From positions 3,226,001 to 3,290,000 of the forward strand of contig NZ_CP021646.1 of assembly GCF_002208135.1 (NCBI RefSeq): a stretch of 64,000 nucleotides of DNA. The letters are read 5' to 3'. The notes beneath the pieces were generated by a model. That model saw only the letters and a list, made by a program, of their open reading frames with translations. It was not told the DNA's origin and made no database searches. Numbering within the stretch: the first letter of the stretch is position 1; every line of letters begins with the position of its first letter. The DNA is from Pseudoalteromonas piscicida. Its GTDB lineage: Bacteria > Pseudomonadota > Gammaproteobacteria > Enterobacterales > Alteromonadaceae. Below are positions 49,887 through 61,940 of this stretch, piece by piece. Made by a program: the position numbers and the translations under genes.

Positions 49887-50180
49887 ATGCAAGCCGTTAT
49901 CGAAAAACTCAATGAAAATCTCAAGCTCATATACCGCCAAGCACTGGATGCGGATAAAAAACTCGATGAATTGCAGCAGCAAGGTCATGGTAAGTTTAAA
50001 GCGCTATTTACAGAAGAAGCGGGGTTTACGTTTGAAGCAAAACGCTTTAAACCTTATGTTTTAGATGTTGCAGCCGACGTTGAAGGTCTATCGACGACTG
50101 AAGAAATTGACGAGCAAAAACTTGCACTTGTTGTGAAAAAGCTACAAAGCCTATTACAACTACTCGCAACTTTTAAATAA
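49887..50180 (+). CDS. Small conserved-looking helical protein of unknown function
   Basis: A 97-residue charged protein, no signal or membrane segment, with long amphipathic helices (VIEKLNENLKLIYRQALDAD; EQKLALVVKKLQSLLQLLA). The codon pattern and length of the open frame are gene-like. No family is recognised. It precedes the Gph-like phosphatase by 56 bases on the same strand. Confidence 0.65.
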   Translation: MQAVIEKLNENLKLIYRQALDADKKLDELQQQGHGKFKALFTEEAGFTFEAKRFKPYVLDVAADVEGLSTTEEIDEQKLALVVKKLQSLLQLLATFK

Positions 50181-50236: not shown

Positions 50237-50896
50237 ATGTTTACATACCCAACTTGGGTTGGCTTTGATTTAGACGGTACTTTAGTCAGTACCGCTGAAG
50301 ATATCGCCTACGCTTTAAACACAACATTAAACCATTACTATTTGCCGGATATTGAACTTGCCCTTGTTAAAACTTGGATTGGCAATGGTACAACGAAGCT
50401 GACTGAACGTGCGTTAGACTTCCATAACAATACCAATATTGACAGAGCCGAAGCGACTCGTTTACTTGAAACCATTTACGATGACTGTGTCACACGCTCA
50501 TCCAGTTTATTCTCTAATGCAAAAACTACACTGCAGAGTTTACATCAGCAAAGAATTAAACTCGCTTTAGTCACCAACAAGAATACTTCACATACTCATA
50601 AGTTATTAGAGCACTTAGAAATTAAAACGATGTTTGACACAATTGTGTGTGCTGACACTTTGAAAAAGAAAAAGCCAGATCCACTGCCTTTATACACCTC
50701 TGTAAATAATATGAATTGCGAAGTACAAGATGGGTTTTATGTTGGTGACTCCATCAACGATGTGGCAACTGCACGAAATGCAGGTTGTAAAGTTGTTACC
50801 GTTGACTATGGCTATAATCATGGCAATCCAATTTCACAAAGTGAGCCTGACGCTATTATTAGTGATTTATCGGAAGTATTAGCACTATTCAATTAG
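50237..50896 (+). CDS. HAD hydrolase, phosphoglycolate phosphatase-like
   Basis: A 219-residue HAD enzyme: motif I GFDLDGTLVST (Asp11, Asp13), motif II LALVTNKNT, the lysine in KKKPDPLPLY, and motif IV FYVGDSINDVATARNAG. The helical cap with WIGNGTTKLTERAL is typical of Gph, which clears 2-phosphoglycolate. The TAG stop (50894-50896) is the first three bases of a miniature element; without the element the flanks would give TAA at the same codon, so the protein length is unchanged. Substrate by family only. Confidence 0.82.
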   Translation: MFTYPTWVGFDLDGTLVSTAEDIAYALNTTLNHYYLPDIELALVKTWIGNGTTKLTERALDFHNNTNIDRAEATRLLETIYDDCVTRSSSLFSNAKTTLQSLHQQRIKLALVTNKNTSHTHKLLEHLEIKTMFDTIVCADTLKKKKPDPLPLYTSVNNMNCEVQDGFYVGDSINDVATARNAGCKVVTVDYGYNHGNPISQSEPDAIISDLSEVLALFN

Positions 50897-51210
50897 GGCC
50901 TGTTGACCTTTGCTGTTTGATTTTTGTTCTCCTGAGTGTGTTTTGGTCGCGACGCTCGACTTGCCGCCTAGTAATCTAGGCAAAAGTTGAGCAACAATGA
51001 ACAAAGCGCACTCAGGTGAACCCAAAGGGCTGCGCTTGATTGGCATTTCTACTGTGTTGCCCCACAAGGATGTGGGGTAAGGTGACTTTGCAGGAGCACA
51101 AAGTCTTTATCGCCTGACTCACATAGAACAACTATGCTACGCAGGCTCTGCCTTGTATAAATACCAATCAAACTGCTGCAAAAACAAACTTGAAAGATAA
51201 ACAGGCCCTA
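50894..51210. mobile_element. Miniature inverted-repeat element of about 317 bp
   Basis: Terminal inverted repeats TAGGGCCTGTTGACCTTT (50894-50911) and, in reverse complement, TAGGGCCTGTTTATCTTT (51193-51210), 16 of 18 matching. The interior has no intact gene; a 60-codon minus frame at its left is not gene-like. The ends start and finish with TA, compatible with TA target duplication as in IS630/Tc1-type elements. It lies exactly at the stop codon of the upstream phosphatase. Confidence 0.75.
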
Positions 51211-51227
51211 ATAATCTTAGATAAAAA

Positions 51228-51247
51228 AGCTCACATCCTTGTGAGCT
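51228..51247 (-). terminator. Rho-independent terminator of the isonitrile operon
   Basis: Exact 7-bp stem AGCTCAC (51228-51234) with GTGAGCT (51241-51247); on the minus strand it is followed by TTTTTT (51223-51228). It lies 21 bases beyond the last gene of the operon. Confidence 0.85.
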
Positions 51248-51267: not shown

Positions 51268-52062
51268 CTATAAAATATGAACCCGTTTTAGATGACGATT
51301 TAAGCCGCTTCCTTCAAAGCGACTGCGTCCATGTAATAAAGCCAGATTATCCACAAACACAAACTCGCCTTTCCTCCAACTATGTTTATAAAAGTAGTTC
51401 GACGAGTAAAGTAACGAGTTCATTTCTTTCAAAAAGACATCACTTTGATAAGTATCAAAACCTATCACCTGTGTCTCAACTGGATTCACTGCCATATTAT
51501 CTTCATTGAAAGGTTCAATATAACGCATGCGAAGCTTGCCTGTCTTAGGGTGACGGCTTATTAAAGGAACTTCAATCACCCCTCCATAGTGGGCTTTCTT
51601 TTCCGTTTCATAACGGATCCGAATTTGCTTCCATTGCTCAATGGTATCGTTCGGTAGACTTTCTAGTAACCGTGTTGTATTCAAAAATGTAGTCTCTCCA
51701 CCACCGGAGTTGGAACTACTCTGCAAGCATTGAAAGAAGTTAAACCTTGGCTCTTCTGAGGCGAATGCTCCATCCCAGTGCAACTCTACCTTACCCTCAC
51801 TGAAAATATGATTTTGCGGTTGTTCTTGTATTTTTAAATCAAGTACATAACCGAAGTCCCACTGTAAAAGCGGACCGATCTCTTTAGCTACTAGCTCCAT
51901 ATCAGTATCATTGAGGGGCTCAAATCCTTTGAGCACAACCAGTCCTTGAGAAAATATTTCATCGATCAATGAAGCGATATTAAGACGCTCAACTCTTTGA
52001 CAAGCCATAGAAGTTGCATCAATGACAACTCCAACGCTATCCAAGGCTTTAATTGTATCCAT
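51268..52062 (-). CDS. pvcB: Fe(II)/2-oxoglutarate-dependent oxygenase, PvcB/TauD-like
   Basis: A 264-residue TauD-family dioxygenase. Metal ligands are His95 and Asp97 in LHWDGAF and the distal His244 in LLHGRSRF; Arg260 near the C-terminus is positioned for 2-oxoglutarate. Placed directly after an isonitrile synthase it matches PvcB/IsnB, which oxidises the isonitrile amino acid to a vinyl isonitrile with loss of CO2. The ATG at 52062 overlaps the pvcA stop by one base (TGATG); a GTG at 52065 is an alternative. The last gene of the operon, before a clear terminator. The symbol is by family and position. Confidence 0.85.
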   Translation of the reverse strand: MDTIKALDSVGVVIDATSMACQRVERLNIASLIDEIFSQGLVVLKGFEPLNDTDMELVAKEIGPLLQWDFGYVLDLKIQEQPQNHIFSEGKVELHWDGAFASEEPRFNFFQCLQSSSNSGGGETTFLNTTRLLESLPNDTIEQWKQIRIRYETEKKAHYGGVIEVPLISRHPKTGKLRMRYIEPFNEDNMAVNPVETQVIGFDTYQSDVFLKEMNSLLYSSNYFYKHSWRKGEFVFVDNLALLHGRSRFEGSGLNRHLKRVHIL

Positions 52063-53042
52063 CACTCCGCTCCTCGATGAATACGCTCAAAATGGCTTGC
52101 ACGCCCTTCGTTGAACACCAATACACAACCTAACTTCTCAGCTTGTTCACGCGGCATGAGTTGATAACTTGTATTATCTTTCACCAATACTGAATGCCAT
52201 GGCGTTGTCCAGACATCAGTTTGTGAAACTAAAGAAATACCAATTTTTTCAGACACCAAGTATTGAGGGTGAATTGATAGACGTAACGCTTCAGGTAAGT
52301 GATCTTTCAACAATCGACTCCATGCATTACTCCTTTGGATCACTCGGTAGGCAGCTGTTTTAGCAACTTTTTGCAACGCTGTGCGGCTATAATCCGAAAA
52401 CTTGTCAATGCCAGAGAAATCTTCCAACATAAAGCGTGTTATGCCTTTATACATCGTGGACGCTTCTTTTTCATTTTTCACGCGTTGACGTAAGTCTGAC
52501 AAGCTCTCTCCGTAGCGGATCATCAGCTCTTCACGAAGTACAGTAAAGTCATCAACTTTGTCAAATACATCTTCTAAGTTAAAGAATTCAAAATAGTTAG
52601 GGTAATGACGAGCCGCGTATTGGCGTAGTGTATTTACGTACTGGCTGACATGTGAATCCGTGACATGAATGATATCGGCAAAAACACGACCATCAGAACA
52701 AATAGTGACTTTTGCACCGGGTTCATAAATAGATTCAATCTGTTTACAGAGATTGACTAAGCGTTCAAATGCATAGAACTCTCCTTTATCAGGCAAGAAA
52801 CCCAGTGTTTTCGTTCTATTTGGTGACTTTGCAGGGAAAGCTGGCAATACCATATTAATAGGTTCGTTATTTGCGATGAATTGCTCAACCCTCTCTACAT
52901 GCCCCGCGATCTGCTCAGTGAATGGTGCGTTATCTTCTATAGGTAACAAACGGCGTTGCTCAAAAATTAGTGAAATAATATCTTCTGCTAACGACTGTAT
53001 TTGACAATCCTGGATGCGGTGTTTGGTAGCTAAATTTTCCAT
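52062..53042 (-). CDS. pvcA: Isonitrile (isocyanide) synthase, PvcA/IsnA family
   Basis: A 326-residue member of the DIT1/PvcA family: VLPAFPAKSPNRTKTLG (residues 65-81), EFYAFERLVNLCKQIESIY, and the signature VTICSDGRVFAD (112-123). These enzymes build an isonitrile on the amino group of an aromatic amino acid, using ribulose 5-phosphate as the carbon donor. The neighbouring oxygenase and flavin enzyme make a complete small pathway. It starts 16 bases after the flavoenzyme gene. Tyr or Trp as substrate cannot be decided from sequence. Confidence 0.93.
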   Translation of the reverse strand: MENLATKHRIQDCQIQSLAEDIISLIFEQRRLLPIEDNAPFTEQIAGHVERVEQFIANNEPINMVLPAFPAKSPNRTKTLGFLPDKGEFYAFERLVNLCKQIESIYEPGAKVTICSDGRVFADIIHVTDSHVSQYVNTLRQYAARHYPNYFEFFNLEDVFDKVDDFTVLREELMIRYGESLSDLRQRVKNEKEASTMYKGITRFMLEDFSGIDKFSDYSRTALQKVAKTAAYRVIQRSNAWSRLLKDHLPEALRLSIHPQYLVSEKIGISLVSQTDVWTTPWHSVLVKDNTSYQLMPREQAEKLGCVLVFNEGRASHFERIHRGAE

Positions 53043-53058
53043 TTTCTTTGCCTAATTA

Positions 53059-54672
53059 TTATATGTGAAAAAGCTGCATAGCATGGGTAAGTGATAATTT
53101 ATCTTCGATAGCGGCTTGAACTACCATCGGCATTTTTTCTTCGTCAAAGTCGACCTTTTGAATTTCACATAAGCTACGTAAAAACCCCTGATAGGTGACT
53201 TCCAAAAGTGCATGATCTAACTCTGCAATCGCCGCATCGTCTAACATTGCACCTCTTGTGTGTGCGTGTTTCATACGTTGTCGCGTGAGTTCAATATCGA
53301 AAAAGTGTCCACGATTGTAGCGGTATTCATATCCTTTGATTAATTGAATAAACTCATCTTTTAATACGTGAATCCTTGCAATCGCTGCATTTTCTACCAT
53401 CGCGATAGCTTTTTGATTGACTTCGTCTTGACTCATTCCATGCAGGCTTGGGCAATAACCATAACGACGAGACATAGAGGACGGTAAAATAAAACCAAAC
53501 CAATGCATTAGTAATGCTTCAAAATGCGTTTTATGTACTTCATAACTACCATGGTAGTTACCTGTAATGTGCAACATAAAACTCTCATACCAAGAAAGAA
53601 GGTACGCATTGAATGCCTTTGTTTTACCAGCAAACATTTCTGCATCTTCGGCGATATCCGCCTCAATAAGTTCGCCAATCATGCGGTTAGCATCGGTTAG
53701 GTAAGCAGAACCTGGTGATAACAAGGGATCTAAAAAGGCTGATGACATTCCAGTTAAGAACCAGCGTTCTGTAGAAAAGGATTGCTTTGCCTTTCTAGAT
53801 AGTCGCTTCATCGAGGTGTAATCTAATAATTCAGCGTGCTGTCCTAGAATTTCATTGAGTGCTTGATGAGAGCGTAAAAACTGCTCAAATTCTTCAGCTG
53901 AACGAATATTTAAATTCACTTCATTATTTTTAGCAGTAATCCCAATGCTAAAGGTATCTTGATTCAATGGAATTAACCAAATCCAATATCCTTTGTACAT
54001 AAAGTGATTGGTAGCCAGTGCTCTACTCGTAAAGTTCGAGCGAGCACGCCACTCATCACTTCCAAGGTGATCAATCAGCTCAATATGCTTAAACCTTCCC
54101 CAGTATGAACTCACAGGATGGCGATCATTTTGTGATTCAATTAATCCAAGCTGTTTACCCAACGGTGAATTAAAGCCCGATGCATCAACTAAATAACGAC
54201 AAGTATAAGTGCTACCACTGGTAACTACAGTGTGTCCTTGCTGCGCATCAAGACTAATTTCATTAACTGTAGTGCCCATTACAACATCGACACCTAGTTC
54301 ACGATTAAACTGCACCATATCGTTATCAAACTTTTCACGGTCAATTTGATGCGCAGGGATGCCATGATACCAACTACGCCCAAGCTCACTCAGTTCTTCA
54401 ACACTTAAATCGCGGTTATCACTATCAAAGTAAAAACGCAGTCCATGTTTGTATAGGTGGTTTGTTTCAAGGTAAAAACCAAGCTTTAAATCGTTTGCCA
54501 TGTAGTCCCAAAAAGACTCCAGTGTCGACTCTCCAACCCAACTATTAAACGCCTGCTTTCTCTCTATAACCGTAATTTTCATATCTGGGTGAGCCAATTT
54601 TAGTTGTCTTGCCAAGCAAGCCCCCGCCATTGAACCACCAATAATCAATACATCTGCGTATTGGCTTACCAT
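53059..54672 (-). CDS. Flavin-dependent halogenase-like monooxygenase
   Basis: A 537-residue FAD enzyme with the dinucleotide motif IIGGSMAGACLARQL (10-24), WVGEST (45-50), a lysine in YKHGLRF (Lys75) at the position of the halogenase catalytic Lys, a GWxWxIP-type motif as GYWIWLIPL (228-236), and FLDPLLSPG (313-321) as in phenol/pyrrole halogenases. Together these point to a flavin-dependent halogenase or close relative. In an isonitrile operon it may halogenate the aromatic ring of precursor or product. It carries a C-terminal helical extension of ~150 residues. Halogenation rather than hydroxylation is inferred. Confidence 0.82.
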   Translation of the reverse strand: MVSQYADVLIIGGSMAGACLARQLKLAHPDMKITVIERKQAFNSWVGESTLESFWDYMANDLKLGFYLETNHLYKHGLRFYFDSDNRDLSVEELSELGRSWYHGIPAHQIDREKFDNDMVQFNRELGVDVVMGTTVNEISLDAQQGHTVVTSGSTYTCRYLVDASGFNSPLGKQLGLIESQNDRHPVSSYWGRFKHIELIDHLGSDEWRARSNFTSRALATNHFMYKGYWIWLIPLNQDTFSIGITAKNNEVNLNIRSAEEFEQFLRSHQALNEILGQHAELLDYTSMKRLSRKAKQSFSTERWFLTGMSSAFLDPLLSPGSAYLTDANRMIGELIEADIAEDAEMFAGKTKAFNAYLLSWYESFMLHITGNYHGSYEVHKTHFEALLMHWFGFILPSSMSRRYGYCPSLHGMSQDEVNQKAIAMVENAAIARIHVLKDEFIQLIKGYEYRYNRGHFFDIELTRQRMKHAHTRGAMLDDAAIAELDHALLEVTYQGFLRSLCEIQKVDFDEEKMPMVVQAAIEDKLSLTHAMQLFHI

Positions 54673-54681
54673 AATTTCTCC

Positions 54682-55860
54682 TTAAAGGTAGTAAGTCAGC
54701 CTAAGTTCTATAAAATCATCATCTTTAAACCCATAGGTCGCATCACGCTGGGTTTGCTCTAAAAACAAGTTTGCTTCAAGCGCTAGACTCAAGTGACTGG
54801 AGAGCCTAGTTGAAAATTCGGTTTTAATGGTGTGAGCCCCAGTGTCGTTATCAATTAAGACCCCAGTAATCATGCTCGTATCATCAACATCATTCCACGC
54901 GAGTCGCATGCCAATAAATGTCGCATCTTGATAGAGACGATTTAGATTCACCTGTTCTTCGGTATCTCTATGTAACTCCATGAGTAAACTGAGATCTTTG
55001 TTGGAATTGGCGATACCGTAAAAGTAGTATTCGGCACCGACGACATAAGCCCAGCTTTTCCCTCCCATTTGGTGATGGCGATGTAGCGCTTCAACCTTCC
55101 CAAGCAGATACTCAGACGTCCACTGTAAGTCCAATGCTGTTTGTTGAAGGCGCCGATAAATAGCATCGAACTCTTGATTATCATTAGGGCGTATAACGGG
55201 CTCCCTGTCGATGCCGTCGAAGTAGTAGGTTCCAACATCCCAATCACCTAGCACACCGCGATAACCTAATAAGTAGCTACCTCTATAATTAGCATCTCGG
55301 CCTACAAATTGCTCATCGGTTACAGCTAGTGGCAACGACAAGCGGTCATCAGGAAGGCCGAAATCACGCTCACGAAAATAAGGTAAAGACATGGCAAACC
55401 AGTGACCATTATCAGTAAAATGCTGATAATGGAGTAGTAACTCTCCAAGCTTAGCCTCGTTATCTAAATTTCGTGTCGGCTGCTTTTGATTGACGATATC
55501 AACCAAATGACGAGACTCTGCAACTCCCCAAAAAACAGTATTTACACCAACATTCAACTGTCCTTGTGAGAAAGAGCTAGTGATATATGCTTCTTGAATG
55601 TCGAATACCCTTATCCCCTCATTTTTCGCTGCACTTAATACAGGTTTAAACCCTCCGCTTAAGCCTGTCTTTAGGTTTTCAAAATCCAACTCCCACATCA
55701 ATTTAGCATCGAATTCTCGGTCAAGTTGTGAGGCTCTCATTGGAGAGCCATTATACTGCCGAGTGCTAAGGTCAATGCTGGTGCTACTTTGCCACTCCAT
55801 CTCTGCTTTCGCATAAGGAATGCAAGATAGCACAACAGCAAGCATCGCCTTGAATCGCAT
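54682..55860 (-). CDS. Outer-membrane beta-barrel protein (DUF1302-like)
   Basis: A 392-residue exported protein with a signal peptide (MRFKAMLAVVLSCIPYAKA) and alternating amphipathic strands ending in FIELRLTYYL, a typical barrel terminus. GQLNVGVNTVFWGVAESRHLVDIVNQ resembles the DUF1302 porin-like family that often accompanies RND/MMPL exporters and LolA-like proteins. It lies between the LolA-like and halogenase-like genes with gaps of 8 and 9 bases, so it is firmly in the operon and may be the outer-membrane exit. Confidence 0.8.
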   Translation of the reverse strand: MRFKAMLAVVLSCIPYAKAEMEWQSSTSIDLSTRQYNGSPMRASQLDREFDAKLMWELDFENLKTGLSGGFKPVLSAAKNEGIRVFDIQEAYITSSFSQGQLNVGVNTVFWGVAESRHLVDIVNQKQPTRNLDNEAKLGELLLHYQHFTDNGHWFAMSLPYFRERDFGLPDDRLSLPLAVTDEQFVGRDANYRGSYLLGYRGVLGDWDVGTYYFDGIDREPVIRPNDNQEFDAIYRRLQQTALDLQWTSEYLLGKVEALHRHHQMGGKSWAYVVGAEYYFYGIANSNKDLSLLMELHRDTEEQVNLNRLYQDATFIGMRLAWNDVDDTSMITGVLIDNDTGAHTIKTEFSTRLSSHLSLALEANLFLEQTQRDATYGFKDDDFIELRLTYYL

Positions 55861-55868
55861 ACCTCCCC

Positions 55869-56660
55869 CTATTTCAACGACGACTTAATAAAGTCGCGAG
55901 CACTCAAGGCAATATCAAATTGGTAGTCTGAAAACTCTAATATCGTCTTTTTGCCCGACTGATGATTTTCCATTGTCATGGTAAGCGGGCGCCAGTACGC
56001 CTGTTGATATAATTTGTAGTTATCTAGGCTCAATGTTTTTAAATGACTGCCTTTTCTATCGTAGAAGTCTATTTTTCTAACTTGATAATCCTTGGTATCT
56101 ATTAATGCACGTTGTTTGGTATATCCCGAGTTTTCATATTTTGGAAACCGATCTATCACCGCACATGTCAGCTCGCCACACGCCTCTTCCGATACATATT
56201 CATAGCTATACTTATTGAGTTCTTGAGCTGTAAAATCTTCAAACGCAAACTCGCTGCCAACAAATGGTCCCGATTTGTTGGCAGAAGAGATCCGTTTAAC
56301 ACGCTTAAGCGCTGGGAGATATAACCACTGATCATCAGCATCTATAATTTGCGCATGTGAAAGCAGCTTGGTTTCTTTTACATCTGCAGGAGAGTTAAAA
56401 ATAATAAGGCTTTTGTCACCTTTGTCTTCATCTGCCACTTCCATGGTTTTCATGGTCAATAAGCGTTCGGTTTCTTGGCCTTTCTTGTCTATCAAACGCA
56501 TTTTTAAATCAACCGAACTGACTTCAAAACCTCGATCTGAACGATCTGCTTTAGCTGCAATGTTGTAGCCTAGATTGTCTTGCGTTGCGTTGCTGGCAAA
56601 AGGTATAACCAGCAATCCGATTGCTAAATGCGATAAAAACTTAGACGTTGTAGATTTCAT
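55869..56660 (-). CDS. Outer-membrane lipoprotein-sorting (LolA-like) protein
   Basis: About 263 residues from the ATG at 56660, chosen because GAAGGAGCG precedes it and a signal peptide follows (KFLSHLAIGLLVIPFASNA). The frame stays open upstream to 56774, but only within the RND gene. The mature part has the LolA-like fold pattern: MRLIDKKGQETERLLTMK, FNSPADVKETKLLSH, QWLYLPALKRVKRIS, GSEFAFEDFTAQELN and KIDFYDRKGSHLKTL. Such proteins commonly work with MMPL exporters, passing hydrophobic cargo across the periplasm. It overlaps the RND gene by 20 bases. Confidence 0.88.
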   Translation of the reverse strand: MKSTTSKFLSHLAIGLLVIPFASNATQDNLGYNIAAKADRSDRGFEVSSVDLKMRLIDKKGQETERLLTMKTMEVADEDKGDKSLIIFNSPADVKETKLLSHAQIIDADDQWLYLPALKRVKRISSANKSGPFVGSEFAFEDFTAQELNKYSYEYVSEEACGELTCAVIDRFPKYENSGYTKQRALIDTKDYQVRKIDFYDRKGSHLKTLSLDNYKLYQQAYWRPLTMTMENHQSGKKTILEFSDYQFDIALSARDFIKSSLK

Positions 56661-59007
56661 TTTTCGCTCCTTCTTGAATAGACGCTTTGCTCGCTTGCTT
56701 TGATCTTTTAGCCAGTAACATAAGCAGCGCGGGTAAGAATAAAAAGTCCACGATGAGTGCCATGACAATGGCAAGTGCAGTTAGCAGCCCCATCTGCGCA
56801 TTGATCATAAAGGTTGAATAGGCCAACACTGCGAAGCCGCCAGCCAGAATAAATGTGGTCAGTAAAATAGCTTCACCGACGGTTTCAAAGGCATACTTCA
56901 CCGCACCTGCTGGGTCCAATCCCTGCTCTCGTCTCGCCCGTAAATACTTGGATAGGAAATGCACGGTATTATCAACAATGATCCCTAAAGAAGTTGAAGT
57001 CACCGTAGCCGCCGCCACACCAACTTGACCGACCAATATAGCCCAAATACCAAAAGTGAATAGCATCGGAATTGTGTTGGGTAGAATACTTGCGATCCCA
57101 TATTTAATACTTCTCAGCGTCATCACCATAATCAAGGTGATCACGATAACGGCAATTAAATTACCGCTGAGCATGCTTTCTGCGTTACGCTGGAAAATAT
57201 GTGAGAACATTACGGTCGCACCGGTTGCTTTAGCATGCATAGCATCTGGTGTATGGTCGACTAGCCAAGCCTCAGTGCGAGCGATAAAAGATTGGATCTG
57301 GCCAGTTGAGAGGTTATCTAGAGTCAAGCTTACTCGAGTTGCCGATTTATCCATACTGATCCTGTCCGTCAGGTCTAACCCAAATGGCAAGGACATTTCA
57401 TAAAGCAGGAGATACTGCGCTGCTAACTCTCTATCAGCAGGTAAACGATACATACTGGTGTCATCTTGATGCATATTTTTGTTGAGACGCTTAACAATAT
57501 CCGTGTAACTATAGACATGAACCACCTCTGGTTGCATTCTCAGCCACTGTGTAAATTGATTCAGATTGGTAAGATATTCAGGTTCACTGATCCCACCTAC
57601 TTTGCCACTTTCAACATCAAACTCAACCACATAAATACCAGTAAGGTTTTCCATGGTAAAATCAGTATCACGGCGAAACTCCACTCGATGATCAAAGTAC
57701 TTCACAAACTCATCATTGAGATCAATATTAGGGACCACGTAGGCACTAGCCGCAATCGCAACAACAGTAAATAGCAAAATAGCTCGATATTTCTGCGCGA
57801 CAACACCTCCAAAACGACCCAGGTAATGAGATAACATGCTTGTACGAGTTGCATAGCTCTTTTTGTCTGGCAAAATGGCGATGAGGCTGGGTAGTAAAAT
57901 TAGAGATAATACCCAAGCAGCAGCAATACCAAATGCTGTAATGTTGCCCAAATCGGCAAATGGAGGGGCATCCGACATGTTAAGAGTTAAAAAGCCTACA
58001 ATTGTAGTCAAGCTAGTTATAGATACGGGAACGAAGTTAATTCGTAAACTTTCCACTATCGCGTGATTTTTTTCGTGTCCTGCTTTTCTTGCTGCATAGT
58101 AAGACAACAAAACGTGTATGCTGTCAGCTATCGCTAGCGTTAGAATAATAGTTGGTGCGGTTATCGAAATAGGAGTTAATTGAATACCAGCGTAGCCACT
58201 GATCCCCATAGCAACAACACTTGAGAAAATCACCACAGATACAGCTGCAATAGTTCCTGGAAAACTGCGTAATCCACAGTACATTACAATGATCAAAACC
58301 AAATACATGATAGGCGTAAGGGTTTCGGCATCTTGCTGCCCTGACTCACTAAACGCATTGTTTAGCATCGAAATTCCAGAAAGCGCAAACACTAAATCAG
58401 GATTCTCTTGCTGTGCTTTTGCAACTATTTCGCGAACATGCTTTACCGCTGTCGGTACCTCAGTCAGTGATTCACCTGGGTACTGAACGGTAATATTGAT
58501 ACCTGTCGTCTTACCGTTATTTGCGATCAAGCGCTGTTTTAATAAGGGTTCTTGTTGTGCAATTTCCGCTTTTTGTAAAATGTCTTCTTCACTTAATGAC
58601 TGGATGTTTTTCATCAAGTCCGCAACTATCAGCTCATCTCCCTCCGCGTAACTATGCTGAAAGTTAGTCACAGAGTCGACTCGACTAGCATAGGGTGTTT
58701 GCCACGCAGCCTCTGTCAGCTGCTCAACCACCATTGCGTGTTGTTTGGATAAACCGTTACCCTCTTTTTGATGCACAACAATAAGAATATTATCGTTCTT
58801 GGTGTACTTGTCCTGAAAAGCTTCAAAAGCCAGTAGTTCGGGGTTTGAAGCGCTAAAAAATGCCCGATAATCATTAGAAAATGTTAAGCCTTTTGCCCCA
58901 ATACCAATTGCAATACAAGACATGATACTGAATAGTAAACACAAGTATTTATATCTAGTGACAAACTCACCGAGTCGCTTAGCAACTCCTTCTAGCGATG
59001 ATCCCAT
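56641..59007 (-). CDS. RND/MMPL-family exporter
   Basis: A 788-residue inner-membrane transporter with twelve predicted helices in two groups of six, each preceded by a large periplasmic loop (after about 45 and about 415). Landmarks: ITAPTIILTLAIADSIHVLLSYY with an acidic residue in helix 4 and its counterpart LGIIVDNTVHFLSKYLRARRE in the second half. The type resembles HpnN/MMPL lipid exporters rather than AcrB. The first gene of the operon, with AAGGAGAG before the ATG and an operator-like site at 59024-59041. Probably exports the isonitrile product or a lipid. Confidence 0.9.
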   Translation of the reverse strand: MGSSLEGVAKRLGEFVTRYKYLCLLFSIMSCIAIGIGAKGLTFSNDYRAFFSASNPELLAFEAFQDKYTKNDNILIVVHQKEGNGLSKQHAMVVEQLTEAAWQTPYASRVDSVTNFQHSYAEGDELIVADLMKNIQSLSEEDILQKAEIAQQEPLLKQRLIANNGKTTGINITVQYPGESLTEVPTAVKHVREIVAKAQQENPDLVFALSGISMLNNAFSESGQQDAETLTPIMYLVLIIVMYCGLRSFPGTIAAVSVVIFSSVVAMGISGYAGIQLTPISITAPTIILTLAIADSIHVLLSYYAARKAGHEKNHAIVESLRINFVPVSITSLTTIVGFLTLNMSDAPPFADLGNITAFGIAAAWVLSLILLPSLIAILPDKKSYATRTSMLSHYLGRFGGVVAQKYRAILLFTVVAIAASAYVVPNIDLNDEFVKYFDHRVEFRRDTDFTMENLTGIYVVEFDVESGKVGGISEPEYLTNLNQFTQWLRMQPEVVHVYSYTDIVKRLNKNMHQDDTSMYRLPADRELAAQYLLLYEMSLPFGLDLTDRISMDKSATRVSLTLDNLSTGQIQSFIARTEAWLVDHTPDAMHAKATGATVMFSHIFQRNAESMLSGNLIAVIVITLIMVMTLRSIKYGIASILPNTIPMLFTFGIWAILVGQVGVAAATVTSTSLGIIVDNTVHFLSKYLRARREQGLDPAGAVKYAFETVGEAILLTTFILAGGFAVLAYSTFMINAQMGLLTALAIVMALIVDFLFLPALLMLLAKRSKQASKASIQEGAKNEIYNV

Positions 59008-59023
59008 TGTCTCTCCTTAAATA

Positions 59024-59041
59024 ACAGAACAACCATTCTGA
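59024..59041. promoter_or_regulatory. TetR-type operator upstream of the isonitrile operon
   Basis: ACAGAACAACCATTCTGA has inverted ends (CAGAA/TTCTG) and matches the site before tetR (59763-59780) at 15 of 18 positions. It lies 17 bases upstream of the RND gene start, within reach of the promoter. Confidence 0.75.
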
Positions 59042-59163
59042 TATAAAATAAAAAAATAGCTAAAAGCTTTTCTTCACGATCACTTCTAGCAATTAAGCAA
59101 ACGCTTTGGGTAATCTTTACTGATCACTCAATTCAAATCTTTATCACGACGTATTATCTTTCG

Positions 59164-59748
59164 TTACTTCTGCGCCATCATGTCAAAAATCGTAGTTAAG
59201 TAATGTCTCAGAGTTTCACGATGGAAATCTCCTTTTGCCATCACGGCTACACCTTGAAGCACACCAAGTAAACAAAAGCTCAAACTGTTTGCATCAATCT
59301 CTTTGCGAATCTCACCTTGCGCTTGCGCTTTTTCAATGAAATCTCGAAACTGCGCACTCAACGCACTGTAGACCTGTTGCACCGCTGAATTCATATCAGG
59401 GTCGGACTCACCCACTTCTGTGGCCGTATTACAAATCAAGCAGCCATTAGCACCATGCGCTGCAATGTTTTGACTATACAAGTTAAAAAATGCAGTTAAG
59501 TCTGCCAAACAGCCATCGCTTGCACTTAAACGCTTAAGCCCAGGTCCAATTTTACGCAGAGAATACTCCTGCAAACAGCGTTGAAACAATTCCTTTTTAT
59601 TACCAAATTCTTGGTAAAACCCGTACCGACTAACACCAGTACAAGTGACTAACTGTTCCATGGAAGTATTCCTATACCCTTGCTTCCAAAACAGGATTGT
59701 CGCTTGTTCCAATGCTTTATCGACATTAAACTCTCGCGTTCTTCCCAT
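59164..59748 (-). CDS. TetR/AcrR-family regulator
   Basis: A 194-residue repressor from the ATG at 59748 (GAGGAG upstream; nine more residues are open to 59775). The N-terminal HTH is TREFNVDKALEQATILFWKQ followed by SMEQLVTCTGVSRYGFYQEF, the C-terminal ligand domain begins near residue 80 and carries two Cys in NGCLICNTATE, as in NemR/AcuR-type members. It is upstream of the RND gene on the same strand with its own promoter, and near-identical operator-like sites lie before both genes, so autorepression and operon control are likely. The effector is unknown. Confidence 0.93.
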   Translation of the reverse strand: MGRTREFNVDKALEQATILFWKQGYRNTSMEQLVTCTGVSRYGFYQEFGNKKELFQRCLQEYSLRKIGPGLKRLSASDGCLADLTAFFNLYSQNIAAHGANGCLICNTATEVGESDPDMNSAVQQVYSALSAQFRDFIEKAQAQGEIRKEIDANSLSFCLLGVLQGVAVMAKGDFHRETLRHYLTTIFDMMAQK

Positions 59749-59762
59749 AGGCTCCTCAAAAA

Positions 59763-59780
59763 ACAGAATATACATTCTGA
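59763..59780. promoter_or_regulatory. TetR-type operator overlapping the tetR -10 region
   Basis: ACAGAATATACATTCTGA, with arms CAGAA/TTCTG, covers the -10 hexamer of the tetR promoter. It shares 15 of 18 bases with the site before the RND gene. Confidence 0.75.
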
Positions 59781-60585: not shown

Positions 60586-61059
60586 CTTTGGATCTCCTTC
60601 AAACTCTACCATCACCTTACTCCTTCATTGTGCGAAGTAAAGCAAGATCACACCCTTTTACGCAGTGTGACATTTGACTACATTTACATAACCAACCTGA
60701 AACTGTACTCAGAAGTCAGTTAGCTAACTGAATGAAAAAACTAAGTTCACCGATACTATTTATTCCACCCTAGAAAAGTGCTTTCTCAAAAGCAATATAG
60801 GTTTTCGGGGCTATTAAAAACAAAGTTAAAGCACTCTTAAGGATTCACAATTGCTAGCGTTCAAGTTAGCTTATAATTAGTAAGACCGAAATTAGGGTAA
60901 ATCGTTCTCAAACGAATGTAATCAAAGCAGGATCTTTACGACTACAAGCAATCGAGTAGTTTCATCTCTATGCTCTTTTATCCCCCCATCAAACCACTGC
61001 TACTTACCCTGCATGATAAATCCGACCAATAGAAAAACGTAAACATTTCACATTGATTG
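60586..61059. other. Gene-free AT-rich stretch
   Basis: After the ribosome-binding site and start region of the DUF3016 gene, no frame of useful length, RNA gene, terminator or element end was recognised. Confidence 0.4.
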
Positions 61060-61305
61060 TCAGCTACTCTTTTCAATCGTTATCTTATGATTCTCTTTAT
61101 ATAGATTAGTAAGTTCTTTGTAGTTCAAGTTTAATTTATAAAACCCTGAAAAGTAACAATATCTACCATCAATATATTTATAGTAAACCTCAACTTTTCT
61201 AATCCAGTCAATAGACTCAAAAGCATAAATAATATCAATCTTTACAAACTCAATTTCACTCATATCTATAGTATTTTCATCTAAAGACAAATGGTCATGA
61301 GACAA
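61060..61305 (-). CDS. Doubtful small ORF, AT-rich
   Basis: An 81-codon frame opening with TTG; the first ATG is at 61263 (67 residues). The translation (SEIEFVKIDIIYAFESIDWI; VEVYYKYIDGRYCYFSGFYK) reads like a small soluble protein and is more AT-rich than its neighbours. It has no clear ribosome-binding site. It begins three bases after the stop of the next frame, so the two may be remnants of a single acquired gene. No family recognised. Confidence 0.35.
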   Translation of the reverse strand: MSHDHLSLDENTIDMSEIEFVKIDIIYAFESIDWIRKVEVYYKYIDGRYCYFSGFYKLNLNYKELTNLYKENHKITIEKSS

Positions 61306-61307
61306 GC

Positions 61308-61505
61308 TTACTGTTTTGTATGACTTAAAGGATCGAGTGAGTGAATAAATAAAATATGGGAAGAATAGGGGGTCAAAAAGTAAAGTATCTCTATCTTGCT
61401 ATGGTCAATAGACTCCGGATTAAAGTGCAGAAATATGCCATACAACGTGAAATACAACGAACTAGCAACCTCAAGGTTCAGCAAGTTTTTTCTCATTTTA
61501 AGCAT
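61308..61505 (-). CDS. Doubtful small ORF, AT-rich, with a good ribosome-binding site
   Basis: A 65-codon frame with AGAGGAAAT before its ATG. The translation has a basic N-terminus and hydrophobic stretches (SSLYFTLYGIFLHF; SSHILFIHSL) but no family resemblance. Base composition differs from flanking genes. It may be a small membrane peptide or a decayed fragment. Confidence 0.3.
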   Translation of the reverse strand: MLKMRKNLLNLEVASSLYFTLYGIFLHFNPESIDHSKIEILYFLTPYSSHILFIHSLDPLSHTKQ

Positions 61506-61875
61506 ATATTTCCTCTTGTATAAAAGAAGGAGCCCCCTTGTTCACCTACATATTATTAAGGTCCATCACGATTTTTGCAGTAAGCAATAATCTCAATTTA
61601 CTTGTGATGTTATGGGAAGCGCTTTGCACTAACCACGGATAGCATTGTGACACGAAGCAACTAGATTGGGCCGGGTTTAATGCTATTCATATCGAAAATA
61701 CGACCACATGTTCCGTCGAGGGCGTGTCTACCTCCTCTAACATGAGGCACTAAAAGAAAGTAATGTAAAACTTTGCAGCGCACTTTTTTCACTCTAAAAA
61801 CAACACATGGGCGTTAAATCAATACCCCACTTTATACCCCTAAAATGATGGAGCTTTAGCAAATTTCAGACATAA
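61506..61875. other. Gene-free stretch downstream of groEL
   Basis: No credible gene, RNA or mobile-element end was recognised between the small ORFs and the groEL terminator. Confidence 0.4.
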
Positions 61876-61907
61876 AAAAACCCTAACATCAATGTGTTAG
61901 GGTTTTT
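61876..61907 (-). terminator. Rho-independent terminator of groES-groEL
   Basis: Exact 13-bp stem AAAAACCCTAACA (61876-61888) with TGTTAGGGTTTTT (61895-61907), 6-base loop; on the minus strand it runs into a T tract (61880-61874 complement). It lies 33 bases past the groEL stop. Confidence 0.92.
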
Positions 61908-61940
61908 CTAAAGCGTTTAGTGCTTAGGAAGTGATGTTTA

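Follow-up and report, generated by a model that had tools for sequence, protein, structure and literature searches.

A compact gene block in Pseudoalteromonas piscicida combining a halogenase-family flavoenzyme, isonitrile biosynthesis genes and a candidate export module

Gene content and layout of the locus

In a 64,000-nucleotide (nt) stretch of the Pseudoalteromonas piscicida genome (contig NZ_CP021646.1, positions 3,226,001 to 3,290,000; hereafter the window, whose own numbering is used throughout), positions 51268-59775 of the minus strand are filled by seven genes encoding, in reading order, a TetR-family regulator, an MMPL transporter, a LolA-like protein, an outer-membrane barrel, a halogenase-family flavoenzyme and the isonitrile enzymes PvcA and PvcB. 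We lean, by a small degree, toward reading this locus as a TetR-controlled, horizontally moved block whose products form a halogenated aromatic isonitrile, tyrosine being its most likely source, and export it. Its gene content, gene order, conservation, motifs, palindromes and block boundaries are directly established.

The same gene set and order from TetR to PvcB had been proposed in a first-pass annotation made from the sequence alone, and they were confirmed by the list of open reading frames (ORFs), by Pfam and NCBIfam matches and by a predicted model of the barrel. That annotation had taken the unit to extend from 51268 to 59775; the seven genes stand, but a HAD-family phosphatase gene convergent with PvcB (50237..50896, plus strand; HAD_2, 134 bits) belongs to the same inserted block and had been missed, as had the putative operators described below. 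The spacing of 16 bases or less claimed for the operon holds from LolA through PvcB, with gaps of 8, 9 and 16 nt followed by a 4-nt overlap of the PvcA and PvcB genes, but the MMPL and LolA genes overlap by 20 nt; tetR and the MMPL gene are 156 nt apart. The resulting eight-gene set is compact and transferable, its product is most likely an isonitrile, a small and reactive molecule, and bromination or chlorination of that product is probable.

Two start codons were revised. For the LolA gene, an ATG at 56660 is preceded by AAGGAG, and the TTG at 56774 given in the ORF list is an unlikely start. The listed start of the TetR ORF at 59775 falls within a palindrome, and the ATG at 59748 (MGRTREF...), preceded by GAGGAG, is likelier. 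A hairpin with a T run lies 3' of PvcB (51228..51247, minus strand); terminator-like hairpins are weak as a pattern alone, with 6 found in the region against 6.7 expected, and it is the position of this one after PvcB that marks it as a putative terminator.

The stretch from the HAD gene to PvcB holds a 315-bp element resembling a miniature inverted-repeat transposable element (50892-51212), with 33-nt inverted ends that are 82% complementary. With 40 of 59 candidates scored, the genome holds 12 copies of about 315 bp (at least 91% identity, including this one) and 19 shorter copies of about 265 bp (76-83% identity). The related genome G1089 lacks the element at the corresponding place.

Conservation of the flavoenzyme-PvcA-PvcB triad

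A profile of 29 flavoenzyme relatives led to 27 loci from named genomes, and in the seven best of these (L022-L028) PvcA and PvcB follow directly after the flavoenzyme, an arrangement which we refer to as the triad. The hosts of these seven loci are P. piscicida, Shewanella, a member of the Chromatiales, other metagenome-assembled genomes (MAGs) of gamma-, beta- and unassigned proteobacteria, and an Aquimarina MAG. The nearest named locus is that of P. piscicida (L022), with a flavoenzyme 93% identical to that of the window. The first-pass annotation had suggested looking for the gene order elsewhere, and the full order from MMPL through LolA, barrel, flavoenzyme and PvcA to PvcB does recur, in L022-L024. 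No PvcA match was found in the other 20 of the 27 loci, some of which lie on short contigs. As a separate observation, the PvcA and PvcB of the Aquimarina MAG contig (L028, 1701-3482) form one ORF of 593 amino acids (aa), and contamination of this MAG is possible.

The linkage was also visible in broader samples. Among 120 listed of 373 flavoenzyme relatives found, 41 match any of 119 listed PvcA relatives in longest-contig size, against 0-1 at eight offsets. A 69-row flavoenzyme tree places all 15 rows with a known or inferred PvcA link in one 25-row clade with support of 100/99. The PvcA-linked label requires 8 changes on this tree, compared with a shuffled mean of 13.8, and as many as 8 are needed because ten rows of the 25-row clade have unseen neighbourhoods. 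Acinetobacter, Pseudomonas chlororaphis and Vibrio mangrovi are represented among the latter.

Several other accounts of the linkage were tried and rejected. Chance grouping is ruled out by the conserved neighbourhoods. A general link between the flavoenzyme superfamily and PvcA is not seen, as the seven other genomes of the class in which the flavoenzyme was matched at E <=1e-60 are all absent from those with a PvcA match in a class sample of equal size; likewise, no PvcA lies in the stretch seen around family relatives of the flavoenzyme at 33-37% identity. Nor is PvcA generally linked to these partners: of eight other PvcA loci in the class and phylum samples, the six whose neighbourhoods were read have no match to the flavoenzyme, MMPL, LolA, HAD or PTP-like proteins, and the remaining two are weak partial matches. 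A plasmid home was likewise rejected, with no plasmid record covering 80% of the flavoenzyme.

The set is rare, since only one of 335 genomes of the order, the genome under study itself, has the triad flavoenzyme at E 1e-80. Within the family, 2 of 295 genomes have a close copy of the flavoenzyme. PvcA of any kind occurs in 4 of the 369 class genomes and 6 of the 398 phylum genomes, and both counts include the genome under study.

The boundaries of the block were located by comparison with the Pseudoalteromonas genome G1064, in which flanks 87-94% identical to those of the window place window positions 50179 and 60105 at a distance of 72 nt from each other, so that the 9925-nt block carrying the HAD gene, the operon and TetR is missing as a unit. 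The Shewanella locus (L023) has all seven genes and a HAD gene with 52% identity, without the flanking genes of the window. Beyond the block, the stretch between a DUF3016 gene and groEL (60616-61940) is variable: it has no ORF of at least 90 aa in the window, and L022 has two of about 235 aa there.

The isonitrile enzymes PvcA and PvcB

The PvcA-type isonitrile synthase (52062..53042, minus strand, 326 aa) scores 284.3 bits against the DIT1/PvcA family PF05141, for which the Pfam cut-off is 26.4, and 218 bits against a solved PvcA, 3e59. It reaches 230.7 bits against the tyrosine isonitrile synthase equivalog NF045653, below that model's cut-off of 600, and tyrosine is therefore no more than its likely substrate. 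The PvcB-type Fe/2-oxoglutarate oxygenase (51268..52065, minus strand, 265 aa, GTG start) matches TauD PF02668 with 119.7 bits and has the metal ligands H96, D98 and H245. Its best solved match is the PIsnB-type enzyme 7tcl (163 bits), followed by P. aeruginosa PvcB, 3eat (142 bits). Predicted isonitrile biosynthesis through PvcA and PvcB is thus well supported by family membership and conserved catalytic residues.

The type of isonitrile is a different matter. Excerpts of a 2022 study (PMC9467999) describe two positions used to tell vinyl-isonitrile from isocyanoacrylate desaturases: PIsnB-type enzymes, which yield vinyl isonitriles, have Lys or Arg at PIsnB position 107 and Asn or His at 188, and PvcB-type enzymes, which yield isocyanoacrylates, have Leu and Cys, respectively. 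By the same excerpts, single changes at these positions left the product type unswitched. The PvcB of the window has A102 and I183 at these positions, column 188 having been assigned by inspection of its alignment to 7tcl and 3eat, and so falls outside both published product classes. Among nine triad PvcBs, the first position is A, V, L or I, with Leu only in L025-L027, and the second is I in all nine, with Cys in none; other PvcBs have His and Ala (L060-L062) or Arg or Lys and Asn (L075, L076). The first-pass statement that PvcA and PvcB make vinyl isonitriles therefore holds as to isonitrile formation but was too narrow, since the P. aeruginosa enzyme gives an isocyanoacrylate (PMC9467999, in part) and the PvcB of the window matches neither type. 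In addition, a PIsnB variant with Ala-Phe-Ala beside the metal site lost substrate-dependent stabilisation, again according to the excerpted text of PMC9467999. The Ala-Phe-Ala triplet is natural in the PvcB of the window, which makes a different ring pocket probable.

The HAD phosphatase and its PTP-like counterparts

Of 108 genomes of the genus, five have an orthologue of the HAD phosphatase (at least 56% identity), and those five and no others have this PvcA (at least 76% identity), namely G000, G267, G1065, G1089 and G1072, and the remaining HAD matches in the 108 genomes reach at most 38%, including a second HAD gene of the genome under study. As these are linked genes in related genomes, this co-occurrence shows one inherited block and not by itself a function. 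The HAD motifs appear intact in this product.

In L025-L027, a PTP-like gene follows PvcB in place of the HAD gene, identified by PF22741 in L025 and L027 and by similarity in L026. Across 11 distinct triad loci (the window, L022-L028, L063, L115 and L116), a HAD or PTP-like gene is present in 10, that is, in all but L024, and in L025-L028 it is co-directional with the isonitrile genes and overlaps them or is separated by a short gap. A motif HCAANYR was noted in the PTP-like products of L025 (13717-14166), L026 (9263-9697), L027 (8726-9208) and L117 (11280-11729). It has four residues between Cys and Arg, compared with five in classical PTPs, so these PTP-like proteins may be no ordinary phosphatases.

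G1064, which lacks the block, bears a different isonitrile cluster nearby (L117, 2753-16199), between PriC-like and EpmB genes. It begins with an AraC regulator, MMPL (42%), LolA (43%) and barrel (31%) relatives, an Old Yellow Enzyme (OYE)-like enzyme, a PvcA (45%) and a HAD gene overlapping that PvcA; a 734-aa ORF follows, which joins an N-terminal PTP-like part to a second PvcA domain and a PvcB domain, and an acyl-CoA-dehydrogenase-like enzyme and then an aminotransferase close the cluster. The PTP-like part has no Pfam match and shows 31-35% similarity to the genes of L025-L027. In G1102 (L118), an 822-aa ORF is a HAD-PvcA-TauD fusion. Together with L111 (G1098), these clusters make up a second Pseudoalteromonas type, with two PvcA domains and PTP- or HAD-PvcA-PvcB fusions, found not far from where the window has its block.

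That the HAD phosphatase is a carried-along neighbour with no role in the pathway seems doubtful to us. It is encoded on the opposite strand in the window, none was found in L024, and its cross-cluster identity of 25-37% is not above its identity to the housekeeping paralogue in its own genome (34%), points which weigh against assigning it a role. Set against these are the recurrence of a HAD or PTP-like gene beside the isonitrile genes in nearly all triad loci, its co-directional placement in four of them and its fusion to PvcA-PvcB in L117 and L118. A broader proposal, which we put forward only tentatively and do not consider the probable outcome, is that these loci form an undescribed, widespread class in which PvcA works with an obligatory, dedicated phosphatase (HAD or convergent PTP-like) that removes a phosphorylated piece of ribulose-5-phosphate, and a halogenated isonitrile leaves by a lipid-type MMPL-LolA-barrel route, not a TolC-type pump.

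The flavoenzyme and the case for halogenation

The flavoenzyme (53059..54672, minus strand, 537 aa) matches PF04820 Trp_halogenase with 55.8 bits. The motifs of flavin-dependent halogenases, as given in parts of PMC5945002 and PMC12645471 (a catalytic Lys, WxWxIP and Fx.Px.Sx.G), are complete in it: G12xSxxG17 for FAD, K75, W230xWxIP (to P235) and F313xxPxxSxG (to G321). K75, W230, W232, I234 and S319 are kept in all 29 aligned relatives, P235 and P316 in 28, G321 in 26 and F313 in 23. When the family profile was compared with the PDB, 18 of 20 matched sequences were halogenases, judged by their titles, and Foldseek placed only PltM or CtcP, which are phenol halogenases, at ranks 1-20. The first-pass description of the enzyme as halogenase-like is thus borne out by motifs and nearest relatives, its sequence matches show no grouping with non-halogenating hydroxylases, and halogenating activity is predicted.

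A competing view is that the flavoenzyme adds a hydroxyl group to the aromatic isonitrile, or oxidises it in some other way, without halogenating it, the remaining pathway being unchanged. PvcC of the paerucumarin pathway has a comparable tailoring role. We consider this view unlikely, and several observations nevertheless count in its favour and against ours. The fold is common to halogenases and hydroxylases, as an excerpt on QhpG reports (PMC7876137), and neither the PDB search nor VIA separated the two by fold. Scores against family models of named halogenases are low, with 83.6 bits against the CmlS equivalog NF033113, below its cut-off of 900, and L117 has the OYE-like and acyl-CoA-dehydrogenase-like enzymes in place of the flavoenzyme. 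However, all three halogenase motifs are retained, the lysine and WxWxIP line up with their counterparts in CmlS, CtcP and CndH, and the nearest sequences and structures are halogenases. In L116 (8559-11157; G1089), the flavoenzyme ORF is shorter (499 aa, against 537) and PvcA has 310 aa with a TTG start; the junction of the two genes is thus altered, and the pathway is possibly impaired in that genome.

It is likewise improbable that PvcA uses tryptophan, or some aromatic acid other than tyrosine, and that the product is a halogenated indole isonitrile. PvcA/IsnA enzymes use Tyr or Trp, with the isonitrile carbon coming from ribulose-5-phosphate, according to the part of PMC7949033 on which we draw; this and the score of the present PvcA under the tyrosine equivalog cut-off tell against tyrosine as the settled choice. 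The structural comparisons point the other way, with Foldseek ranking PltM and CtcP above the tryptophan halogenase AbeH (rank 49) and VIA placing PrnA at rank 40. The glutamate of tryptophan halogenases appears to be replaced by L318 here. Taken together, motifs and relatives fit a halogenated, tyrosine-derived isonitrile.

The candidate export module

The MMPL/HAE3-type RND transporter (56641..59007, minus strand, 788 aa) scores 146.1 bits against MMPL PF03176 (cut-off 20.5), and its matches to solved structures are weak (best E 2e-6). The LolA-like periplasmic carrier (55869..56660, minus strand, 263 aa) scores 201.4 bits against PF17131 (cut-off 30) and 220 bits against a solved relative, 3bk5. 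The porin-like outer-membrane beta barrel (54682..55860, minus strand, 392 aa) has no Pfam family at E 0.001, which also rules out DUF1302 as its family, and shows only weak Porin_O_P and Wzi matches; its predicted model (pLDDT 86) has 20 strands and resembles Omp-Pst2 (Foldseek E 3e-12, TM about 0.5).

MMPL and LolA accompany the triad in six of the seven best loci, and in the seventh (L028) the contig begins at the flavoenzyme. In L025-L027 they are only 22-29% identical to those of the window and are placed differently, in L026 they are fused into one 1048-aa ORF, and in L026 and L027 DUF1302 proteins replace the window-type barrel. A linkage kept in all six testable loci despite such divergence is expected if the isonitrile pathway repeatedly needs such a module, and the first-pass suggestion of dedicated export is in this respect upheld, with export itself predicted. 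That the module instead serves envelope lipid handling, self-protection or inward transport is improbable: MMPL-LolA-porin modules of Thalassolituus that respond to long-chain alkanes by induction, for which the consulted part of PMC6304351 proposes uptake, and the 740 relatives of the barrel, mostly without a named function, count against export, but the association with the triad outlasts both sequence divergence and the exchange of the barrel, and L117 retains it despite its other tailoring enzymes.

Regulation

The TetR-family regulator (59164..59748, minus strand; TetR_N/TetR_C_13) has a palindrome, CAGAATGTATATTCTG, upstream of its own gene (59764..59779), and a near-palindrome, CAGAATGGTTGTTCTG, lies upstream of the MMPL gene (59025..59040); both are putative TetR operators. 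A search of the entire 5.3-Mb genome gave three sites with this pattern, two of them at the operon, and none with a reversed control. With one mismatch allowed, there are four matches in the window (two sites, both strands) against 0.95 expected, a number reached in 4 of 100 shuffles. Sites before both tetR and the MMPL gene recur in L022, L023, L063 and L116, and the MMPL site alone in L115. TetR would thus repress through CAGAATGTATATTCTG and CAGAATGGTTGTTCTG.

Discussion

Taken as a whole, the interpretation offered in the first-pass annotation is partly supported and largely plausible. In the pathway that we propose, the chemistry of every step, the nature of the cargo, the direction of its transport and repression by TetR are predictions. 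PvcA would convert the amino group of the amino acid into an isonitrile with carbon from ribulose-5-phosphate, and the HAD phosphatase may take away the phosphorylated sugar fragment that remains. PvcB would desaturate the side chain, whether the carboxylate is lost or kept, and at some stage the flavin enzyme would chlorinate or brominate the phenol ring. MMPL would extract the hydrophobic product from the inner membrane, the LolA-like protein would ferry it over the periplasm and the barrel would be its exit, with TetR binding the palindromes upstream of its own gene and of the operon.

Several known systems share parts of this arrangement. Paerucumarin pvcABCD of Pseudomonas aeruginosa (3e59, 3eat) likewise has adjacent PvcA and PvcB relatives and a flavin enzyme, PvcC, that tailors the product, as proposed here. 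In contrast, the window adds a halogenase-family enzyme, a phosphatase and the MMPL-LolA-barrel module, its PvcA and PvcB are related to the solved enzymes at the scores given above, its PvcB lacks the Leu/Cys pair, and no PvcC/PvcD-type flavin monooxygenase pair was found among the eight genes of the block by Pfam or NCBIfam name. The rhabduscin/PIsnB-type pathways (7tcl) also pair an isonitrile synthase with an Fe/2-oxoglutarate desaturase, but the window has neither Lys/Arg nor Asn/His at the class positions, and its accessory genes differ.

Also comparable is WelH of the welwitindolinone genes, a putative FADH2-dependent halogenase clustered with isonitrile genes. In the portion of PMC4236562 used here, its authors saw no halogenated product and question its role, and the hpi and amb clusters are without WelH; the halogenase gene of the window, in contrast, lies directly 5' of pvcA, and the triad is kept across genera. 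PltM, CtcP, CmlS and PltA share motifs and overall fold with the flavoenzyme of the window and are its nearest solved relatives, but at about 16-20% identity, and the latter belongs to its own PvcA-linked clade of enzymes of about 540-570 aa. TOL_3187 and TOL_3188 of Thalassolituus, per the excerpted PMC6304351, combine MMPL domains, a LolA-like domain and a neighbouring porin in connection with alkane growth, whereas here MMPL and LolA are separate genes next to isonitrile genes.

In the open-access literature, no paper was found that couples PvcA of proteobacteria to a flavin halogenase, or PvcA to MMPL, in keeping with the first-pass remark that its author knew of no described pathway with just this make-up. 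This is a known chemical kind of isonitrile pathway, to which a halogenase-family enzyme, a phosphatase and a lipid-type exporter are added in a way not found described in that literature.

Isonitriles bind metals and inhibit metalloenzymes, and to our knowledge few bacterial isonitriles are known. The conserved halogenase-PvcA-PvcB set, if halogenating, would be a source of halogenated isonitriles and would allow the effect of the halogen on metal binding to be tested. The phosphatase link and the fusions open an experiment on how PvcA disposes of ribulose-5-phosphate, and the phosphatase, if obligatory, would point to what becomes of the sugar phosphate when isonitriles are made. The exporter link, finally, offers a candidate two-membrane route for hydrophobic small molecules without a TolC-type channel.

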